Shown here: positions 8,516 to 29,905 of the stretch, piece after piece
Layout: each line of letters begins with the position of its first letter
Position numbering within the stretch: position 1 is the stretch's first letter
Assembly (NCBI GenBank): GCA_012517475.1
Contig: JAAYUV010000081.1
Coordinates: forward strand, 1 to 41,806
DNA from: Peptococcaceae bacterium
GTDB taxonomy: Bacteria > Bacillota > Desulfitobacteriia > Desulfitobacteriales > Syntrophobotulaceae
Direction: 5' to 3'
Length of the DNA: 41,806 nt
The notes under the pieces: generated by a model
Told to the model about the DNA's origin: nothing
Database searches by the model: none
The model's input: the letters and a program-made list of their open reading frames with translations, nothing else
Program-made: the position numbers and the translations under genes

Positions 8516-8545
8516 CCGATGTTTTTATGTTTAAAGGAGATATTT

Positions 8546-9805
8546 ATGAAAAAGTACAGCTTTGTAAGGCTGATCCTGATCGCCGTAGGCATTTTGGCTA
8601 TTCAGTTTCTGCCTGGTGCTTTTAAAACGATGATCTCCCCGGTTCTTGCTCAGTTGGCGGCTTACCTGAAGGCCGATATCGGTTGGACTAGTTTGGTCGG
8701 GACCGTCCCGTCGCTGACCATGGTACTCGGTAGTTTCATTGCTGGGATATTGGCAAGCAAATACAACAACAAACTGATTTGCTTAATCGGTCTCGGTCTA
8801 TTCTTCATAGGCGGTATCGCACCAATTTTTTGCAGTAATCTAATCATCATCCTTATCTGGCGCGGTGTCTTGGGCGTTGGGGTAGGTCTTGCCCGTTTGT
8901 TTGCGATGTCTTGGATTCCGGTTTTCTTCTCCGGTAGAAGCCGCGATATCATGATGGGCTTTACCAATGCAGCCGGGGGACTAATGAGCAGTCTTGCTTC
9001 GCTGATTGGGGGCTATCTAGGAACGATCAGCTGGCAGGCAGCCTTCTGGGGCTATTCCGCCGTCATCGTCGTAGCACTTTTAGTTCTTTTGCTTGTTCCC
9101 GAACCACTTAAGATTCAAAGAGAGAAGGAAGCTGAAGCTAAAGCCAAAGGCGAAGACATAACAAAAGCTCAGCCTCCCAAAGAAAAGAAGACCATGGCAG
9201 GGGTTCCTGCTGTTACCTGGCATTATGGAGCCCTGCTGTTCTTAGAATACTGCTGCGTCATCGTAATGTACAGCATTATTTCTTCCCATCTAGCTGCATC
9301 GGGTCTGGGCAAATCCATGGAGGCAGGTGTTGCAATCTCCGTTACAGGTTTTGTTATGGCTGTTGTTGCAGTTTGCTTCGTAGGCGTTACTGCGGTTCTA
9401 AAAAGATGGGGTATACCGGTTGCAATGGCGCTGGGCGCTATAGGCTACTTTATAATGTTCAGCGCGCATTCTCTGCCGATGATCTATCTAGGTTTTGGTA
9501 TTGTTGGAGCGGGTATGGGCATCAGCAATCCGACCATTTTCAATTATGTTATTATCGATTGTCATAAAAATATTGAGATGTCGAATGCAATCGTTTTAGC
9601 CGGGTTGACTCTAGGTCAGTTTCTCTCTTCCTTCTACCTAAAAGGCATGGTCATGATCTTCGGTACTAATTATTATGTGATGTTCCTGACCAGCGGTATC
9701 CTGCTTGCCTGCAACATGATATACGGAATTTGCGTAGTTGCCTGGCGAAATAAAGCAGAGAAGGCAGAAATAATGGTCTCAGAACCGGCTTCAGTAAAAG
9801 CCTGA
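8546..9805 (+). CDS. MFS transporter (12 transmembrane segments)
   Basis: A 419-residue permease with about twelve hydrophobic helices in two groups of six. They are separated by a charged cytoplasmic loop rich in Lys and Glu (near residues 195-220). The helix 2-3 loop carries a degenerate MFS signature (GILASKYNNKL), and the RGVLGVGVGLARLFAMSW segment is typical of helix 4-5. ATG 8546 is chosen because AAAGGAG lies 6 bases upstream; the longer frame from 8519 has no such site. It is closely similar throughout to the permease at 11527, so the two are a duplicated pair now separated by an IS110 element. In bile-acid-type clusters such MFS proteins import the substrate (BaiG); a similar uptake or efflux role is inferred here. 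Confidence 0.88.
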   Translation: MKKYSFVRLILIAVGILAIQFLPGAFKTMISPVLAQLAAYLKADIGWTSLVGTVPSLTMVLGSFIAGILASKYNNKLICLIGLGLFFIGGIAPIFCSNLIIILIWRGVLGVGVGLARLFAMSWIPVFFSGRSRDIMMGFTNAAGGLMSSLASLIGGYLGTISWQAAFWGYSAVIVVALLVLLLVPEPLKIQREKEAEAKAKGEDITKAQPPKEKKTMAGVPAVTWHYGALLFLEYCCVIVMYSIISSHLAASGLGKSMEAGVAISVTGFVMAVVAVCFVGVTAVLKRWGIPVAMALGAIGYFIMFSAHSLPMIYLGFGIVGAGMGISNPTIFNYVIIDCHKNIEMSNAIVLAGLTLGQFLSSFYLKGMVMIFGTNYYVMFLTSGILLACNMIYGICVVAWRNKAEKAEIMVSEPASVKA

Positions 9806-9809
9806 GTTT

Positions 9810-9863
9810 GGGACAGGATTACAACAAAAATCCTGATCCCATAACAAAATTGAATAATTTTGT
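9810..9863 (+). repeat. Two consecutive hairpins after the MFS gene
   Basis: GGGACAGGATT (9810-9820) pairs with AATCCTGATCCC (9829-9840) with a single bulge. ACAAAATT (9844-9851) pairs perfectly with AATTTTGT (9856-9863) around a 4-base loop. There is no T run, so these may be a factor-dependent terminator or 3'-end stabilising structures of the MFS transcript. Confidence 0.5.
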
Positions 9864-9980
9864 GAGGTGTAGAAATCTGAAAAAAGACAGTAGAATCAAA
9901 ACTGGTACTAAATCTTAAAAAGGGCGCACTTAAACAGACCTGTTAAGTCAGGTCAAAAAAAGAATCAATATCAATGAGAA

Positions 9981-11228
9981 CTAAGCAGACTCAGGTATTT
10001 TGACAACCGAATAACCCAAACGCTGTAATAGTTTAACTGCATGTTGTTCAGACGAAGCTACGAAGCCTGGTTTGCACTGTGACATTTCGTAGAGTGCCGG
10101 ATTGAACATTTCGCCAGTTGAAAGCATGTGATAAATTGCTGTCAACATCATCCGAGCAATGGCGATTATGGCTCTCTTGTGGCCACGCCGGAGCTTAATG
10201 GACTCATAGCGGGTGCGATAGTGCGTGAAGTCTTTATCCTTAATAGCTGCATTTGCACACTGAACGAGTAAGGGCTTGATATAAACGCCAGCACGACTGA
10301 TACGAACCGATTTCTTCTTGCCGGCGCTCTGATCGTTGGAGGGGGCAAGTCCCGCCCAGGAACAAAGATGCTTGTCAGAATGGAAAGCGGTCATATCGGC
10401 CCCAATTTCAGATAAAATGGCAAGTGCCGAAAATAGAGTTATACCAGGAACAGACTGGATAATCTCCAGAGCACCGGAATAAGGGGCAGCCAACCGCAGA
10501 GCCGTTGCTTCTATCTCAGTGATTAAGCCTTTAATTTTATCCATATGGCTCAAACACAGAACGATTTTACCAGCCTGAACTTTGCTAATGGTGCCGTCAA
10601 TGGCTAAAGCAATTTCGTCTTGTTTCTTAAGCATCGAGCCGTGTAAAAGCGGCCGAAAATCAAAGTCCTGATCATCAGGATGTTTCAACAGATGCGAAAG
10701 AATAGCCAAAGAACTTTTGCCGAAGGTATCGGACACCACACTGGAAAGCATGATATTGGAAACAGTCAGAGAGTTTTGCACCCGGTTCTTTTCGCTGGAC
10801 GCAAAGGAAACCAGTTTGGAACGGTAACGCAGCAGGTCGCGGATTTCGCGAATATCTGCTGGGGGGATGAAACTACCGGGAACCAGTCCATGTTTGTGGA
10901 GGTCTGCAATCCAGATGGAATCCTTTTTGTCAGTCTTCTTGCCGCGGATCGCCTTGACATACTTCGGATGTGCCAGGGTGATCTGGCAGGAAGGTTCAAG
11001 GATATTGTAGACGGGAATCCAATACTTGCCAGTGGACTCCAAGCAAACATGCACACACTGATTATTTGAGAGCCACAGGGCTAAGGCTCTCAGATCTTTG
11101 GTAAAGGTGGAAAAGCGTTTGGTTTGGTAGGTTGTGATGTTCTTGAGATCAGTGGTTGCTATTGTAGCAACGACGAAGGTTTTGTGAACGTCGATGCCAC
11201 AACAGATCGGGTAAACAATTTTAAGCAT
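9981..11228 (-). CDS. IS110-family transposase (DEDD type)
   Basis: A 415-residue recombinase. The N-terminal RuvC-like DEDD domain shows the first acid in CGIDVHK, the second in CLESTGKYW and the third cluster in GKKTDKKDSIWIADL. The C-terminal Transposase_20 domain contains SVPGITLFSALAILSEIG, then SWAGLAPSNDQSAGKKKS, whose region holds the catalytic serine. The length is usual for the family. The ATG at 11228 is preferred because GGGAG lies about 5 bases before it on the minus strand; a longer frame from 11294 has less support. It is about two-thirds identical by eye to the transposase at 28348, so the two elements are related but not recent copies. It appears intact. Confidence 0.93.
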   Translation of the reverse strand: MLKIVYPICCGIDVHKTFVVATIATTDLKNITTYQTKRFSTFTKDLRALALWLSNNQCVHVCLESTGKYWIPVYNILEPSCQITLAHPKYVKAIRGKKTDKKDSIWIADLHKHGLVPGSFIPPADIREIRDLLRYRSKLVSFASSEKNRVQNSLTVSNIMLSSVVSDTFGKSSLAILSHLLKHPDDQDFDFRPLLHGSMLKKQDEIALAIDGTISKVQAGKIVLCLSHMDKIKGLITEIEATALRLAAPYSGALEIIQSVPGITLFSALAILSEIGADMTAFHSDKHLCSWAGLAPSNDQSAGKKKSVRISRAGVYIKPLLVQCANAAIKDKDFTHYRTRYESIKLRRGHKRAIIAIARMMLTAIYHMLSTGEMFNPALYEMSQCKPGFVASSEQHAVKLLQRLGYSVVKIPESA

Positions 11229-11299
11229 AAACACTCCCTCTCTCCGATGGTATAGTGATCGCACAAGCATTGACTGCTCGCCCTCTACAAACAAAGGAG

Positions 11300-11428
11300 T
11301 TGTTTATACAAAGATAAATCTACGTGGTCTATGCCAACACTTATTTGTGCTTGACCGGGCAGAGCGACACATATAATTATGCGGTCTTCCCCAAAGAAGG
11401 GTGGGGTGACGCACTCACCTCCTCGTGC
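11300..11428 (-). ncRNA. Putative IS110 bridge RNA region
   Basis: The non-coding segment upstream of the transposase shares several blocks with the matching segment of the other IS110 element: 11412-11427 (15 of 16 bases), 11367-11386 (18 of 20) and 11337-11353 (17 of 17). The DNA between the blocks differs. IS110 elements are known to express a structured bridge RNA from a non-coding end, with variable loops that pair with target and donor DNA. Conserved blocks around variable stretches fit that model. The exact RNA ends cannot be seen. Confidence 0.5.
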
Positions 11429-11462
11429 TGTGTAGTATACTTGTACGTCCAATTAAAGAATA

Positions 11463-11504
11463 GCGCTCAGGCCACCATTTTCATAACGTTTTGTGCCTGA
11501 GTGC
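11463..11504 (+). promoter_or_regulatory. Leader hairpin upstream of the second MFS gene
   Basis: GCGCTCAGGC (11463-11472) pairs with GCCTGAGTGC (11495-11504), nine Watson-Crick pairs and one G-U, around a 22-base loop. It ends about 22 bases before the MFS start, just outside the IS110 boundary, and could influence translation of that gene. No T run follows, so it is not a standard terminator. Confidence 0.4.
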
Positions 11505-11526
11505 AGCGAAAGGAATGGTAATAATT

Positions 11527-12756
11527 ATGACTAAAAAAATTTCGCCTACAAGACTAGTGTTAATCGCAATCGCGATGCTGAGCATTCAGTTTGTCTGCAG
11601 CAGCAGCAAAACCATGATCTCACCGGTTCTTCATGAAATGGTTAAGTTCTACAAAGCAGACCTCGGCTGGACCAGTTTGGTCGGAACCATACCTTCTCTA
11701 ACGATGGTTCTTGGTGCTTTGGTTTCCGGTGCTCTGGCCAACAAATACAACAACAAATTAATTGCTATATCCGGCGTGATTCTCTTTTTCTTGGGTGGTG
11801 TTCTTCCCGTATTCAGCGACAGCTTCACCGTAATGCTGATCTGGCGCGGTGTTCTCGGATTCGGCGCCGGACTCACCCGTGTCTTTGCGATGTCCTGGAT
11901 CCCGATCTTCTTTAAGGGCAGAAGCCGCGATATTATGATGGGTCTCACCAACTGCCTCGGTGGTCTGTTAAGCAGTGTGGCCTCACTCATCGGCGGCTAT
12001 CTCGGAAAGATCAGCTGGCAGGCAGCGTTCTGGGGCTACGCCTTCGTTCTCATCTGCGCTCTCCTGATTTTTGTCTTCGTTCCTGAACCTACGAGGATTC
12101 AGAAAGAAAGTGATGCTGAGGCCGGTATTGTCAGAGAAGAAGCCAAGAAAGAAAAGCAGAGTATGGCCGGGGTTCCTGCAATTGCCTGGCTTTACTGCGC
12201 AGTTATGTTCCTTGAATTCATGTGCATCACCATTATGTACAGCGTGATCTCGTCCCGTCTCGTCGCAATCGGTTACACATCTGTCCAAGCCGGTGTAGCG
12301 ATCTCCATGACAGGCTATGCTATGGCTGTTGTTTCCTTGATCTTTGGTTTTGTTACCCGTTATGTTAAAAGATGGGGTGTTGTGATCGCCATTGCCCTTG
12401 CCGCGGTTTCCTATTTCGTCCTTGGTTATAGTGGAAACCTTGGAATGATTTATGTGGCCTGTGCAGTTATCGGCGCTGCGATGGGCTTCAGTAACCCAAC
12501 CATCTTCAACTATGTTAATATTGACTGTTCCGGCAATATCCCGATGTCCAACTCTATCGTTCTTGCTGGTTTGACACTCGGAGGTTTCGTGTCCTCTTTC
12601 CTGCTCCAAGCCTTTGTCGGCATGTACGGAAAGAACTATTCCGCAATGTTTAACGCCACCGGCTTTCTGCTGGTCATCATCCTTGCGTTTACCACCTTTG
12701 TTGTTATTTATGCCAACAAGAGAGCTCAGAGATTGGGGCAGGCTTCTACCAACTAA
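11527..12756 (+). CDS. MFS transporter (paralogue of the first)
   Basis: A 409-residue, 12-helix permease that aligns along its whole length with the one at 8546. Shared segments include MISPVL near the N-terminus, GWTSLVGT, the LANKYNNKL loop, RGVLGFGAGL, SGRSRDIMMG/KGRSRDIMMG, ISWQAAFWGY and NPTIFNYV. The central cytoplasmic loop is shorter and Glu/Lys-rich. ATG 11527 is chosen, with AAAGGAATGG upstream; an in-frame ATG at 11515 sits too close to the site. It is followed after 96 bases by the second flavin oxidoreductase in the same direction, and probably supplies its substrate (inference). Having two paralogues suggests uptake plus efflux, or two related substrates. Confidence 0.88.
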   Translation: MTKKISPTRLVLIAIAMLSIQFVCSSSKTMISPVLHEMVKFYKADLGWTSLVGTIPSLTMVLGALVSGALANKYNNKLIAISGVILFFLGGVLPVFSDSFTVMLIWRGVLGFGAGLTRVFAMSWIPIFFKGRSRDIMMGLTNCLGGLLSSVASLIGGYLGKISWQAAFWGYAFVLICALLIFVFVPEPTRIQKESDAEAGIVREEAKKEKQSMAGVPAIAWLYCAVMFLEFMCITIMYSVISSRLVAIGYTSVQAGVAISMTGYAMAVVSLIFGFVTRYVKRWGVVIAIALAAVSYFVLGYSGNLGMIYVACAVIGAAMGFSNPTIFNYVNIDCSGNIPMSNSIVLAGLTLGGFVSSFLLQAFVGMYGKNYSAMFNATGFLLVIILAFTTFVVIYANKRAQRLGQASTN

Positions 12757-24504: not shown

Positions 24505-26135
24505 TCAGCTAAAAACGGGTACAGGTATCCCGTTCGGCGGCTCATTGGAATATTTTGGTTTATAGCCGCCTTGCAGGTATTTGATAAACCGCTTGATGTT
24601 CTGTACCGTTACTTTTAATCCACACACTACTGTGCTTTTCACTTTTCCACGGACATTAAGCTTGTTAAGTCCTGCACGCTTCAACGCGGAATTGCTCCCT
24701 TCGATTCCTGTACGTTTGCTGGTGTTCTCTTTCCTGTTTGAATTCATCTTTTCGCGTTCCCGGCCGGTATTCACTGCTTTGAGGCTGATGCGGACGACGC
24801 AATCCTTGGCTTGCTTTTTGCTGTAGCATTGTTCACGAAACTCACAGTTGGCACAGGCTTCATGAGGAAAGTGAGCTGCCGTTTGTCCTCCGCTGACCCC
24901 GGCATGAGTGGGAATGTGTCCTCCCGGACATTTATTGATCACATTGGTAGTTTCATTTATGTCAAATTCCGTTACGGGAATATTTTCTTTGTAGGCTCCG
25001 TTCCGCTCATGTTGGTGAGATGGATTTCTATTCCGTTTTCCGCAGCGGTTTGATGGACATCCTCAGAGTGGAAGCCGCCGTCCACATACATGTCGCTGCA
25101 GCCTGTGTTTTCGCGTATTCCCTTGAGACGGCCCTGCAGGATTTCCACATCGCTTACGTTGTTGGGTACAACCGTATAATCGGTTATGAGCTGAAAGGTG
25201 TTTTCCTTGTGGCAGGTTTCGGATATTTCCAGCACATAACCGCTTTGGCTCATATTCCCTTTTCTGCGTAAGGTGGCATCTTCATCATATGCTGACTGAA
25301 GAGATCCTGAGGGTATTTCCTTCTTGGGCTTGGGAATAAGTTTTTCGCTTCCGTCTTCGGTTGTGGATTGTTCGGCCAGAAAACGTTTGAGAATCCTCAC
25401 TTCTTCCGACTCCTGCATTCCAGGCTGCACTTCAAGTATTAAAAGTGCTTCCCTGCAGAGGTTTAATAGCAGTGTGAGCTTGCTGTCTCCTTCCTGTGCT
25501 TTGGCACGGTAGAGGACATCAGTTTTGAAATCCGGCTCTAGCGCTTTGGCAAGTGAGTCTGTGAGTTTCTCCTTTGGTATCGCTTTGACTGCTTTGTTTA
25601 GTATATCATAAGCCAGAGACATCCTTCCGGCTTTCTTGATGTTGCTCATGAAGAGCGTGTTGTCTGTCCTTTGCTCTTCCAGCGATATTCCGGCTTTTGC
25701 GGCAAAATCGTGAAGCAGCTTGATGAACTGGCCGAATAAGAGATCTTCCTTGCCGGGGTTCTCCAGGCAGTACTGATAGATTCTTTCCCTGAAATAGTAA
25801 AGGGTTCTTTCGGCCAGGTTCATTTCCCCAAGCGTCCGGATACCCACGGCATAGTTTACAAGGTAATCGAAGTAGAAATCGTCCAGAAGCTCCAAATCGC
25901 TGCAGCATTTCATATGTTTGATATATTCGAGGGACAGCAGGATGTTTACAGGAAAGTTGGGTTTGCCGGTGGTACCATACAGGACGGCAAAGGGTTCTTC
26001 ATCTATCTTACAAAATACGTGCTCGTAGAATATTGGCGTCCAGGATTTTTCCAGCTTTTCACGGATTTTCGCGTTCATCCACTGGGTGCTGTCCGACAGG
26101 GTTTGCTGTTTGTGGCTGTGGTTGGCTCTGAACAT
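24505..26135 (-). mobile_element. IS1182-type transposase, broken by one frameshift
   Basis: The first frame (26135 down to 24972, 387 codons) opens with the DUF772-type N-terminal domain of IS1182/IS5-like DDE transposases and carries two catalytic aspartates: D158 (RTDNTLF) and the YVDGGFHSED motif. It stops just after KKIFP. The rest continues in another frame down to 24505 (VTEFDINETTNVINK, then a cysteine-rich CANCEFREQC segment and the catalytic Glu in IEGSNSALKRAG). Adding one A to the run at 24983-24986 rejoins them as KKNIPVTEF. The element is therefore inactive unless frameshifting or a sequencing error is involved. A TATGCTA/TAGCATA inverted repeat (26148-26189) lies upstream. Exact element ends are not clear. 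Confidence 0.82.
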
Positions 26136-27241: not shown

Positions 27242-28044
27242 CTAAGCCTCTACCACAATGGTGTCAGCCAGCATGTCATGGAGCGCTTTATGCTCTTTAG
27301 TCAACAAAATCGTAAATATCGAAATCAGAGGTACAACAGGAATAGAATTTATCAGGATTTTCCCCAAAAGTTCACGACTGAAAATACCGCCTTTAGTCAC
27401 CGGGCCTGTCTTTGAGCGGCGCACCTTGATGTGTATGAGCTTTTTGCCGACAGTCTGTCCCTTAAAAATAAGGGTTGCTAACAACGAATAAAGCAAATAA
27501 AAGACAAGAGCTAATAAAGCGGCGGCAATTGAAACCGGAGATGGCTTTCTGGCATCCTCCTGGACGATTTTCCGCCCGGCCTCCGGTACCGTTGGCACAC
27601 CATCCGGACTATAGGGAACGCTTTCAACAGTAATAAATTCCTGATAGGATGTATAACTGGAATAAACCAATGCTCCGGGAAAAGGAGAAGGATACATTAC
27701 AAACAGGAAGTAGGAAAGCAGGGTACTTCCTAAAATACACGCTACAACAAAGGCCGGTAATACGGCAATCACCGCATCAATAAAGTAAGCGCACAGACGG
27801 CGGCCGGGGTTGGCAAGGTGTTTATCCGGTTGACCCGTTTCAATTTCCGCTTGTTCGTCAAGCAAAGCCTTGGCCAAAAAGGCGGGCGAGCCGAGTCCCC
27901 CTGATATTTCATCATCGGTTTTTCCGTCCTCTCTACCTGACACAAAAAACTTTCGTAATCAGATAAAATATCCTTTAACATCTCCGGCGCAAGCTTTCCC
28001 TCAAGGTTCTCCTTCAGCTCACGCAGGTATTCAGATTGTTTCAT
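27242..28044 (-). CDS. DUF1700-RDD membrane protein, frameshifted
   Basis: Two overlapping frames make one protein of about 267 residues. The first (from ATG 28044) gives a DUF1700-type N-terminus, MKQSEYLRELKENLEGKL then EMLKDILSDYESF. The second continues with GREDGKTDDEISGGLGSP, a region typical of DUF1700, then an RDD domain with at least three hydrophobic helices, GQTVGKKLIHIKVRR and a terminal HKALHDMLADTIVV. The frames meet at a 6-base homopolymer (A6 at 27944-27949 on the plus strand, T6 on the coding strand), read AGT TTT TTG. This is the T_TTT_TTG slippery heptamer, and a -1 slip restores ESFLVSGRE. Loss of a base, a sequencing error, or real frameshifting could be responsible. It is translated just upstream of PadR. 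Confidence 0.8.
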
Positions 28045-28158
28045 TTATATATCCATTCCTTTCGCTTCGCTCAAGGCACAAAACGTAATGAAATATGTTG
28101 GCCTCAAGCGTTTTTTTATTTAATCTATAAGTCATAGGGATAACAGTTAACTACAAAT

Positions 28159-28290
28159 CACGTGGAGGTGAGTGGGCTGCTCCAATTGTGAGTGACCGCA
28201 TTTTTATATGTGTAGATTGCCTTTCCAAGCACAAATAAGTGTGACTCCGAGCACGCAGACTTATCCTTGTATAAACATTACTCGTTTATT
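28159..28290 (+). ncRNA. Putative IS110 bridge RNA region
   Basis: This leader shares three blocks with the first IS110 copy: 28159-28174, 28194-28213 and 28226-28242, the last identical over 17 bases (CAAGCACAAATAAGTGT). A later GTATAAACA and GTCAATGCT are also shared. The sequence between the blocks has diverged, as expected for target- and donor-recognition loops of a bridge RNA. The ends are approximate. Confidence 0.5.
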
Positions 28291-28347
28291 GCCAGGCAGT
28301 CAGTCAATGCTGTCTATCCCTGTAATTCTTTGAAAGGAGTTTTCCCT

Positions 28348-29589
28348 ATGGCTTTGAAAATCGTTTACCAAATCTGTTGTGGCATCGATGTCCACAAAAC
28401 CTTCGTTGTTGCTTGTATTGCATCTACCAACAACGGTGTTACCACTTACAAACGCCATCGCTTTTCGACCTATACGAAAGGGCTGAAAGAGCTGTCACAG
28501 TGGCTTGGTGATAACAACTGCAAGGATGTTTGTATGGAATCTACCGGGAAATACTGGATTCCCGTGTTTAATGTTCTTGAAGATTCCTGCAACATCACTC
28601 TGGCACATCCCAAATATGTCAAGGCTATCCGTGGTAAGAAGACTGATAAAAAAGACGCTAAATGGATTGCCGATTTATTTAAGCACGACCTTATAGCGGG
28701 AAGCTTTATGCCTCCTCTTGCCATCAGGCAGCTTCGTGACCTTATGCGCTACCGCTTTAAACTGACTAACTTCATGTCAAGCGAGAAAAACCGTCTTCAA
28801 AACTGTTTAACCGTATCCAATATTCAGCTTGGAAATGTTGTTTCTGATACCTTTGGCAAGAGTTCCATGAACATCATTAACAGGCTTTTGGAAAATCCTT
28901 TGGATAACAGCTTTGATATAGAACCTCTTATTCACGGTTCTATGAAAGATAAACTCCCAGAGCTGGAGCTTGCCATTGACGGTTTTATCACGTCTGAACA
29001 AGCTGAAAAACTTAAGGTAATCAAGCAGCACTACGAGGATCTTGAATCACGTAAAGCTGACCTTGAAAAAATTATTCTTTCTCTTTCCGCACCCTACGCT
29101 GAGGAAATCAATCTGATCTTGACTGTTCCGTCTTTTAAGAACATCTTTTCGGCCATAGCAGTAGTCTCCGAAATAGGTGTCAATATGGACGTGTTTCCGA
29201 CAGCTAAGCATCTATGCTCCTGGGCAGGGCTTACACCTACGAATAACGAAAGTGCCGGAAAGAAAAAGTCAGTAAGGATTTCAAGAGCTGGCTGTTACAT
29301 AAAGCCGCTTTTGGTACAGTGCGCAACCGCTGTAGTTAAAAGCGAAAAGCATCCTGAAATCCGCAACCGCTATTTGAGGCTTAAAAAACGTCGTGGTCAT
29401 AAAAGAGCGATCATTGCCATTGCAAGAATGCTCCTTACTGCTATTTACAATATCCTCAAAAAGAAAGAACCGTATAATCCTGAGTTGTATAGAAAATCAG
29501 ATGTTCTTCCAGTGAACCGTGAAATTACGGTAGAGCAAGCAATTATATTAGCAAAAAGTCAAGGTTACCGTATTAGAGCAGCGTCTTAA
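28348..29589 (+). CDS. IS110-family transposase (DEDD type)
   Basis: A 413-residue recombinase with the DEDD signature residues in CGIDVHKTF, CMESTGKYW and GKKTDKKDAKWIADL, and a Transposase_20 domain with TVPSFKNIFSAIAVVSEIG and the SWAGLTPTNNESAGKKKS region. AAAGGAG 8 bases before ATG 28348 sets the start; the longer open frame from 28267 overlaps the putative bridge RNA and is not supported. It aligns over its full length with the transposase at 9981-11228. It appears intact. Confidence 0.93.
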   Translation: MALKIVYQICCGIDVHKTFVVACIASTNNGVTTYKRHRFSTYTKGLKELSQWLGDNNCKDVCMESTGKYWIPVFNVLEDSCNITLAHPKYVKAIRGKKTDKKDAKWIADLFKHDLIAGSFMPPLAIRQLRDLMRYRFKLTNFMSSEKNRLQNCLTVSNIQLGNVVSDTFGKSSMNIINRLLENPLDNSFDIEPLIHGSMKDKLPELELAIDGFITSEQAEKLKVIKQHYEDLESRKADLEKIILSLSAPYAEEINLILTVPSFKNIFSAIAVVSEIGVNMDVFPTAKHLCSWAGLTPTNNESAGKKKSVRISRAGCYIKPLLVQCATAVVKSEKHPEIRNRYLRLKKRRGHKRAIIAIARMLLTAIYNILKKKEPYNPELYRKSDVLPVNREITVEQAIILAKSQGYRIRAAS

Positions 29590-29670
29590 TTTCTTGTTAA
29601 TCCTTATCTTTTTTAAGTCATCACCAGATGGCTTGTATTGCTATGCCCTTTTACTTTGCAGGTACTTCTA

Positions 29671-29905
29671 ACTAATTATTTCAGACTTAATCCCTCCGCT
29701 ACTAATTATTAAATAGTATAGGCTACCTTTATTATACCGACTTACTATTCGATAAACAATAGCGGAAAAGAAAATATTCTTCCTTCTAGCATTAAATAAG
29801 TTACTGTCTGGGTCTTGAGGGAACGACCGGTTTTTATTGGCGACAAAACAGCGGCAAAACGGTTGATATGCGAAAATGACTGACAAATATGGGTAGTCGC
29901 TTTCC
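29671..29905. other. Intergenic region, nothing recognised
   Basis: AT-rich sequence between the IS110 end and the small HTH gene. A 72-codon minus-strand frame covers most of it but lacks a ribosome binding site and resembles no family; I do not count it as a gene. Confidence 0.5.

Follow-up and report, generated by a model that had tools for sequence, protein, structure and literature searches.

The question raised by this locus is what two similar non-coding regions do, each lying upstream of the transposase gene of an insertion sequence, and how they relate to the places where these elements have landed. The locus is a stretch of 41,806 nucleotides (nt) from a Peptococcaceae bacterium (assembly GCA_012517475.1, contig JAAYUV010000081.1), called the window below, and the two elements are called A (minus strand) and B (plus strand) (Table 1). 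Our answer is that A and B very likely make a bridge RNA or seekRNA whose target loop reads a translation start, the recombinase joining element and target at a core. Support from sequence extends to the structure of the RNA, the matching of its guides to target and donor end, the core, and, for two insertions, the derivation of the matched bases from host DNA.

Both elements belong to the IS110 family of insertion sequences. Their transposases both contain the Pfam domains DEDD_Tnp_IS110 and Transposase_20, and the best solved relatives of the B protein are IS621 (E 5e-13) and ISCro4 (E 6.7e-11). As in the IS110 group, a long non-coding region holding the RNA lies upstream of the transposase, and relatives and uninserted sites point to a 2-base core with donor CT and a nearly invariant T. 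The proteins are 59% identical; the first-pass annotation of this DNA had read the pair as two diverged IS110 elements. The annotation had also noticed near-identical, spaced blocks upstream of both genes, and these are seen when 11180-11520 (minus) is aligned to 28060-28400 (plus). The longest exact word common to 11300-11428 and 28159-28290 is 17 bases (mean 6.8 and maximum 11 in 200 single-base shuffles). Coding constraint had been argued not to explain the blocks; stop codons interrupt every frame of both non-coding regions (4 to 7 per frame in B and 2 to 5 in A, three frames each).

Relatives were collected in one scan of genome contigs, which confirmed 201, of which the best 80 were kept; plasmid copies from Enterococcus, Lactococcus, and Roseburia were added. 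Preselection required 57% identity or more and an AAGCAC block, and the conservation of this block therefore carries no independent weight. The structure alignment contained 60 of 66 distinct RNAs (omitted: L067, two of L068, L073, L074, and L077; five about 20 bases longer). A structure of 32 pairs in six helices, chosen after viewing RNAalifold output and covarying columns, is formed in 91.8% of cells. Cells changed on both sides number 327, compared to 91.2 in shuffled and 33-73 in slid versions, and they occur in five of the six helices. No such changes are seen in the helix that closes the target loop (columns 12-15 with 78-81), and its outer pairs are broken in 17/60 and 14/60 RNAs. RNAalifold alone recovers three helices (4-7/189-192, 38-43/55-60, and 82-91/172-179) and adds 19-21/28-30, which is absent from the 32-pair structure. 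Of 17 loci outside the training set, 10 have a strong match to covariance model R1 (E 5.2e-18 or better) upstream of their transposase; the misses are more distant elements (L027-L029 and L031-L033) and a partial copy (L006). Compensatory changes between A and B, which the first-pass annotation had named among its tests, do exist (4 of 32 pairs are changed on both sides and still paired), but this pair alone is weak proof and the support comes from relatives. G-U pairs exceed A-C pairs (231 to 53 cells), an excess that shrinks to 63 to 53 once pairs that are mostly G-U are excluded, so the RNA strand is supported mainly by the geometry of the guides. These comparisons support the view that both non-coding regions encode one structured RNA on the transposase strand.

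The target-loop guide was compared with the DNA beside each element in 77 insertions (80 chosen and five plasmid copies; L063 and L127-L131 were skipped as off-pattern, and L101 and L121 are cut by contig ends). The segment 3' of hairpin P2 reads [C/T/A]AT, two bases (N1N2), the core, and AUAU, and it agrees with the plus strand of the left flank. Guide and flank have the same N1N2 in 61 of the 77 insertions (11.0 when shuffled, P<=0.00005) and in 28/43 distinct guide/flank combinations (4.3 when shuffled). With fixed-length left ends only, N1N2 is equal in 57/73 and CAT is present in 70/73. A equals its guide at N1N2 and core (AA-TT), and B equals its guide at N1N2 (TT). Guide bases after the core track the left end of the element (ATA with ATA in 54/77, ATG with ATG in 14/77; the other nine differ at the third base). 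Nineteen guide versions occur among the insertions.

This agreement would be internal repetition if the matched flank bases belonged to the element as an unrecognised left end, and the bases adjoining the left core are indeed alike in many copies. Copies with the same guide can have differing flanks, however: in Parablautia Q6255 five of the six copies listed match and one has AT for GT, and in Lachnospiraceae 3-2 four of five match and one has CT for TT. For the uninserted site of an Enterococcus faecalis plasmid, 81 of 87 matching plasmid records contain 80% or more of the joined flanks at a single location. Uninserted sequences there read GGAGGGATAAAATATG (L133) and GGAGGGGTAAAATATG (L132), and the occupied site reads CATAT-TT-left end ... 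right end-CT-TATCCCTCC; the host base is A where the L127 guide, by eye, has T. Element L018 has an unusual guide, AA-C (AAC), and two other genomes of its host's genus (L137 and L138) carry the uninserted sequence GGAGGTACAAGTTATG, which is AA-C on the other strand and an exact fit. Among other counterparts of this site, the one in L018's own genome (L136) has one additional A, L139, L140, and L142 show several base differences, and L141 could not be aligned. Because the uninserted Enterococcus and L018 sites carry the matched bases without an element, these bases are host DNA in the two cases, and we consider an origin within the element extremely improbable. Uninserted sites for A or B were not found in 25 genomes of the family (own genome included), and one for the Lactococcus copy was looked for and not found. 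Phage records gave 10 matches, every one below 60% identity.

The comparison of uninserted and occupied Enterococcus sites also indicates that the core is 2 bp, that the left junction keeps the target core, and that the right junction has the donor core. The right core is CT in 71/75 relatives (TT in A), the left core is TT in 68/77, and its second base is T in 75/77. A core of TT in both junctions was considered and is ruled out by the Enterococcus uninserted site (donor CT, target TT). With the junctions set in this way, the right ends proposed in the first-pass annotation were close (9874 and 29687 are the true ones), and the left ends proposed (11425-11450 and 28130-28165) are internal to the elements, the true ones being roughly 70 to 115 bp further out. 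Loops do match flanks as had been predicted, but on the left side not at the flanks that had been listed.

The flanks matched by the guide appear mostly to be gene starts. CAT stands at the place of a start codon in 74/77 insertions. In 58/75 it begins a frame of 60 or more codons, compared to 101/357 control ATGs. A Shine-Dalgarno match could be assessed in 72 of the 77 (right ends missing or misplaced and an N run were excluded), and one of at least 5 nt is present in 52/72 right flanks, compared to 58/703 control windows. Matches of at least 4 nt occur in 61 flanks, 16 of them at 4 nt from the core and 55 within 0-7 nt. The target layout is CAT (start codon), two bases, the 2-bp core, and then CCTCC (Shine-Dalgarno on the other strand). 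The letters of the guide RNA appear to match a ribosome-binding site and a start codon, which would be why the elements land just ahead of genes. The left end of the element holds AAAGGA on the gene strand; it may replace the displaced ribosome-binding site and restore translation. Eight copies (L056, L066, L073, L079, L080, L096, L113, and L116) have a left-flank CAT that opens a frame of just 3 to 12 codons, so the element may follow sequence and not true gene starts, or the genes may have decayed.

A second match links the RNA to the element itself. The five bases of the donor-loop 3' guide up to and including the core equal the right end in 71/74 copies (20.7 when shuffled), and a fitting right end lies nearby for two of the three misses; the boundary search had misplaced the right ends of L095 and L108, for which fitting ones were found. 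The RNA therefore has what is expected of a bridge RNA, namely a conserved structure and target and donor loops that match target and donor (the donor match being that of the 3' guide), and it is very probably the bridge RNA or seekRNA of an IS110-family element. The bridge RNA reading of the first-pass annotation is borne out by covariation, by the matches of guides to target and donor end, and by uninserted sites. Its expectation of a conserved scaffold with variable guide loops is largely reversed in this clade. Identity between A and B is high at the RNA start with the 5' target guide (22/25), in the 3' target guide (16/18), on the 5' side of the donor loop (14/14 columns), and in the 3' donor guide (12/15), and lower in hairpin segments (10/27, 7/14, 7/15, 12/21, and 6/13). 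The guides thus lie within the conserved blocks, and what varies is mainly stems kept paired by double changes. The guides are conserved because their target appears to be a common signal, the Shine-Dalgarno sequence and start codon, and only two or three guide bases vary freely.

A mechanism can be proposed from these matches. The left-end non-coding region would give rise to a bridge RNA or seekRNA from the transposase strand, and its target loop would recognise both DNA strands of a translation start. Across the start codon, two bases, and the 2-bp core, the 3' guide (CAU N1 N2 and core, then AUAU) would pair with the gene strand; the 5' guide (GGAGG) would pair with the other strand, at the complement of the Shine-Dalgarno sequence. 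In the donor loop, the 3' guide would pair with the element's own right end. The recombinase would connect the circle to its target at the core, which is CT in most donor copies and usually TT, sometimes AT or CT, in the target. The element would end up antisense to the gene, between the Shine-Dalgarno sequence and the start codon. Transcription, RNA-protein binding, catalysis, and pairing of the 5' guide are the steps that we infer.

Several observations weigh against this mechanism. N1N2 differs between guide and flank in 16/77 insertions, and four left ends (L008, L018, L108, and L110) were allowed one additional base so that CAT fits, after which all four match. B has core AT where its guide has TT, the first base being off. 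Seven of the 32 pairs are non-standard in A (one in B). Because the sequences share ancestry, the significance that shuffling assigns to structure and donor guide is too high. The distance from Shine-Dalgarno match to core is spread around a peak at 4 nt and fits no single register, and since the 5' guide is almost constant, complementarity and enrichment are the basis for its pairing. Finally, single-sequence folding of B is no better than that of shuffled sequence (z -0.02; reverse strand z -0.13), and that of A gives z -2.39.

The folding of B is what would be seen if the blocks were DNA sites of the transposase, or the ordinary leader of its mRNA, and the protein picked the target. We find this highly improbable, given that five of six helices keep their pairing through double-sided changes and that N1N2 in the flank tracks the RNA between near-identical proteins (B has guide TT, and L018, 94% identical, has an AAC guide and an AAC target). 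A narrower alternative accepts a guide RNA and holds that the start-codon side alone is read, the Shine-Dalgarno enrichment being a by-product of start codons. It would fit the variable spacing of motif and core, the 20/72 right flanks without a 5-nt match, and a GGAGG guide that varies too little to covary. Exact GGAGG is nevertheless retained in the 5' guide of 51/60 RNAs. A Shine-Dalgarno match of at least 5 nt is present at 99/1055 other CATNN[ACT]TT sites in the same flanks (10/109 for own-guide matches), and if CATNNNTT were all that is read, gene starts should be chosen less often than they are. This alternative seems unlikely to us, and reading of both sides of the translation start is preferred.

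Table 1. Features of elements A and B (positions in the window).
Feature	Positions	Strand	Remarks
Element B	28049..29687	+	1639 bp, first base after left core through right core CT; junctions set by register with relatives and two uninserted-site families
B left flank, CAT-TT-AT	28042..28048	+	start codon of minus-strand 91-codon frame, N1N2, core
B inverted repeat and T tract, left end	28068..28117	+	by eye; terminator scan gave no call
B putative bridge RNA, structured core	28141..28318	+	model R1, 187.2 bits; B in training alignment
B target loop 5' guide, ACGTGGAGGTGAG	28160..28172	+	holds GGAGG, complementary to right-flank CCTCC
B variable stretch	28173..28195	+	mainly target-loop hairpin P2 (stem, not guide); from helix 3 and segment identity
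B target loop 3' guide, CCGCAT-TT-TT-ATATG	28196..28210	+	start codon, N1N2, core, handshake bases
B donor loop 5' side, AAGCACAAATAAGTG	28227..28241	+	putative
B donor loop 3' guide	28253..28269	+	AGACT = right end AGACT
B transposase	28348..29589	+	413 amino acids (aa); PF01548 and PF02371
B right flank	29688..29703	+	contains CCCTCC = Shine-Dalgarno GGAGGG on minus strand
Element A	9874..11522	-	1649 bp; right core TT = 9874-9875; register as for B
A left flank, CAT-AA-TT	11523..11529	-	start codon of plus-strand 409-codon gene, N1N2, core
A inverted repeat, left end	11464..11505	-	by eye; terminator scan gave no call
A putative bridge RNA, structured core	11259..11445	-	model R1, 134.7 bits; A in training alignment
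A target loop 5' guide, ACGAGGAGGTGAG	11414..11426	-	
A variable stretch	11385..11413	-	mainly hairpin P2; 2/6 pairs absent in A (alignment)
A target loop 3' guide, CCGCAT-AA-TT-ATATG	11370..11384	-	N1N2 and core same as left flank
A donor loop 5' side	11338..11352	-	putative
A donor loop 3' guide	11309..11325	-	AGATT = own right end AGATT
A transposase	9981..11228	-	PF01548 and PF02371 on 9981-11234; ATG at 11228 by eye
A right flank	9858..9873	-	contains ACCTC = Shine-Dalgarno GAGGTG, plus strand, 9864-9869

Other features of the elements and the window were also recorded. The inverted repeat and T tract at the left end of B may be a transcription terminator that insulates the element. A promoter and terminator scan at B detected nothing; at A the scan called no terminator, and the two promoter-like sites that it reported (0.9 in shuffles) lie antisense to the element. 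The outer 40 bp at the two ends of A, and likewise of B, share no inverted repeat above chance. The window has no Rfam match at gathering scores and no tRNA according to ARAGORN. At 8519-12756, A is flanked by two transporter-like genes that resemble paralogues (71% DNA identity, 108 bp); we take both, including the 409-codon gene at its left flank, to be MFS-like. Two adjoining open frames at 24505-26135 (minus) presumably are pieces of another transposase-like gene.

The genome itself has six protein matches (some partial) and four RNA-model matches, three of them in the training set. A third copy in this genome (G000 C111:49506-50759; L004, L008, L155) has an RNA scoring 170.8 bits; part of its transposase is missing, because two open pieces span query residues 2-226 and 285-409. 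A distant copy (G000 C45:3323-4751; L003, L157) has 50% protein identity, an RNA of 87.6 bits, and by eye a TA-type core, and its flank CATATTAAAC reappears in its RNA as TATATTAAAC. A clade about 36% identical (L028, L029, L031, L032, and L033) has a different upstream region with no R1 match. By eye, the left flank is repeated upstream there too, for example TGTTATAGAC (L031) and AGAGTAGAC (L032), and this clade (L028-L033) also seems to put the bottom-strand match on the 3' side.

A title by Doran from 1997 reportedly reads "IS900 targets translation initiation signals." Translation starts are already in print as targets of IS900 of Mycobacterium avium subsp. paratuberculosis, also of the IS110 family (PMC8141618, available text); what is less expected here is the guide order. 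The published IS900 target motif is CATGNNNNNNTCTCCTT (PMC8141618), which by our reading would be a start codon and a Shine-Dalgarno complement, and insertion between Shine-Dalgarno sequence and start codon is found in the A/B clade as described for IS900 in the available text. Unlike A and B, IS900 is spanned by an antisense hed frame according to the same text. A hed-like antisense gene was looked for in A and B and not found, and antisense open stretches of at least 100 aa number one in A (140 aa) and zero in B. IS900 is not named in the available text of PMC11208160 or PMC11187229, and no report of a guide RNA for IS900 was found in the literature searched. Nor did that literature, which was without preprints and most subscription journals, yield any description of a guide RNA that is directed to translation starts. 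If true, the proposed reading would provide a mechanism for translation-start targeting as known from IS900, and the 19 guide versions would be a natural set aimed at one site type and checkable by uninserted sites.

IS621, as far as it is described in the available text of its reports (PMC11208160; PMC11208158), resembles the A/B clade in having an RNA at the left end of the element on the transposase strand, a pair of loops that each contain two guides, a 2-bp core, donor CT, a nearly invariant T, and handshake bases after the core. Handshake guides have been described for IS621 (PMC11208158), and the guide bases after the core here are as expected of them. The strand order differs. The IS621 kind has the 5' guide with the bottom strand on the left-end side and the 3' guide with the top strand, whereas in the A/B clade the 3' side corresponds to the bottom strand at the left-end side (its N1N2 equals the plus strand of the left flank) and the 5' side to the top strand at the right-end side (GGAGG being complementary to the plus strand of the right flank). 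IS621 targets REP elements, whereas the A/B clade appears to target translation starts. ISEc21, of IS110 type, also has a non-coding RNA upstream, but its top-strand match lies 3' of its bottom-strand match (PMC11187229, available text). Figure 6 or Extended Data Figure 10 of PMC11208160 may already show how the guides are ordered in other long IS110 elements.

The seekRNAs of IS1111 elements (ISEc11, ISPa11, and ISKpn4) resemble the A/B clade in that the top-strand match precedes the bottom-strand match (PMC11187229, available text); in the clade the 3' half of this order is strongly supported and the 5' half by complementarity and enrichment. In other respects IS1111 elements differ, the RNA usually being downstream, with subterminal inverted repeats and transposases of 330-350 aa, whereas the clade has its RNA upstream and the B transposase has 413 aa. 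The clade would thus combine IS1111 guide order with IS110 RNA position. We lean toward regarding this as a third bridge-RNA architecture, with an upstream RNA and IS1111 strand order in a long-transposase IS110 element, and with a target loop hard-wired to Shine-Dalgarno sequence and start codon, a landing site that most genes offer, and tuned by two or three free bases. If true, the position of the RNA would not suffice to tell the guide order when bridge recombinases are given new targets, and the mixture of IS110 position and IS1111 order would bear on the origin of both groups.
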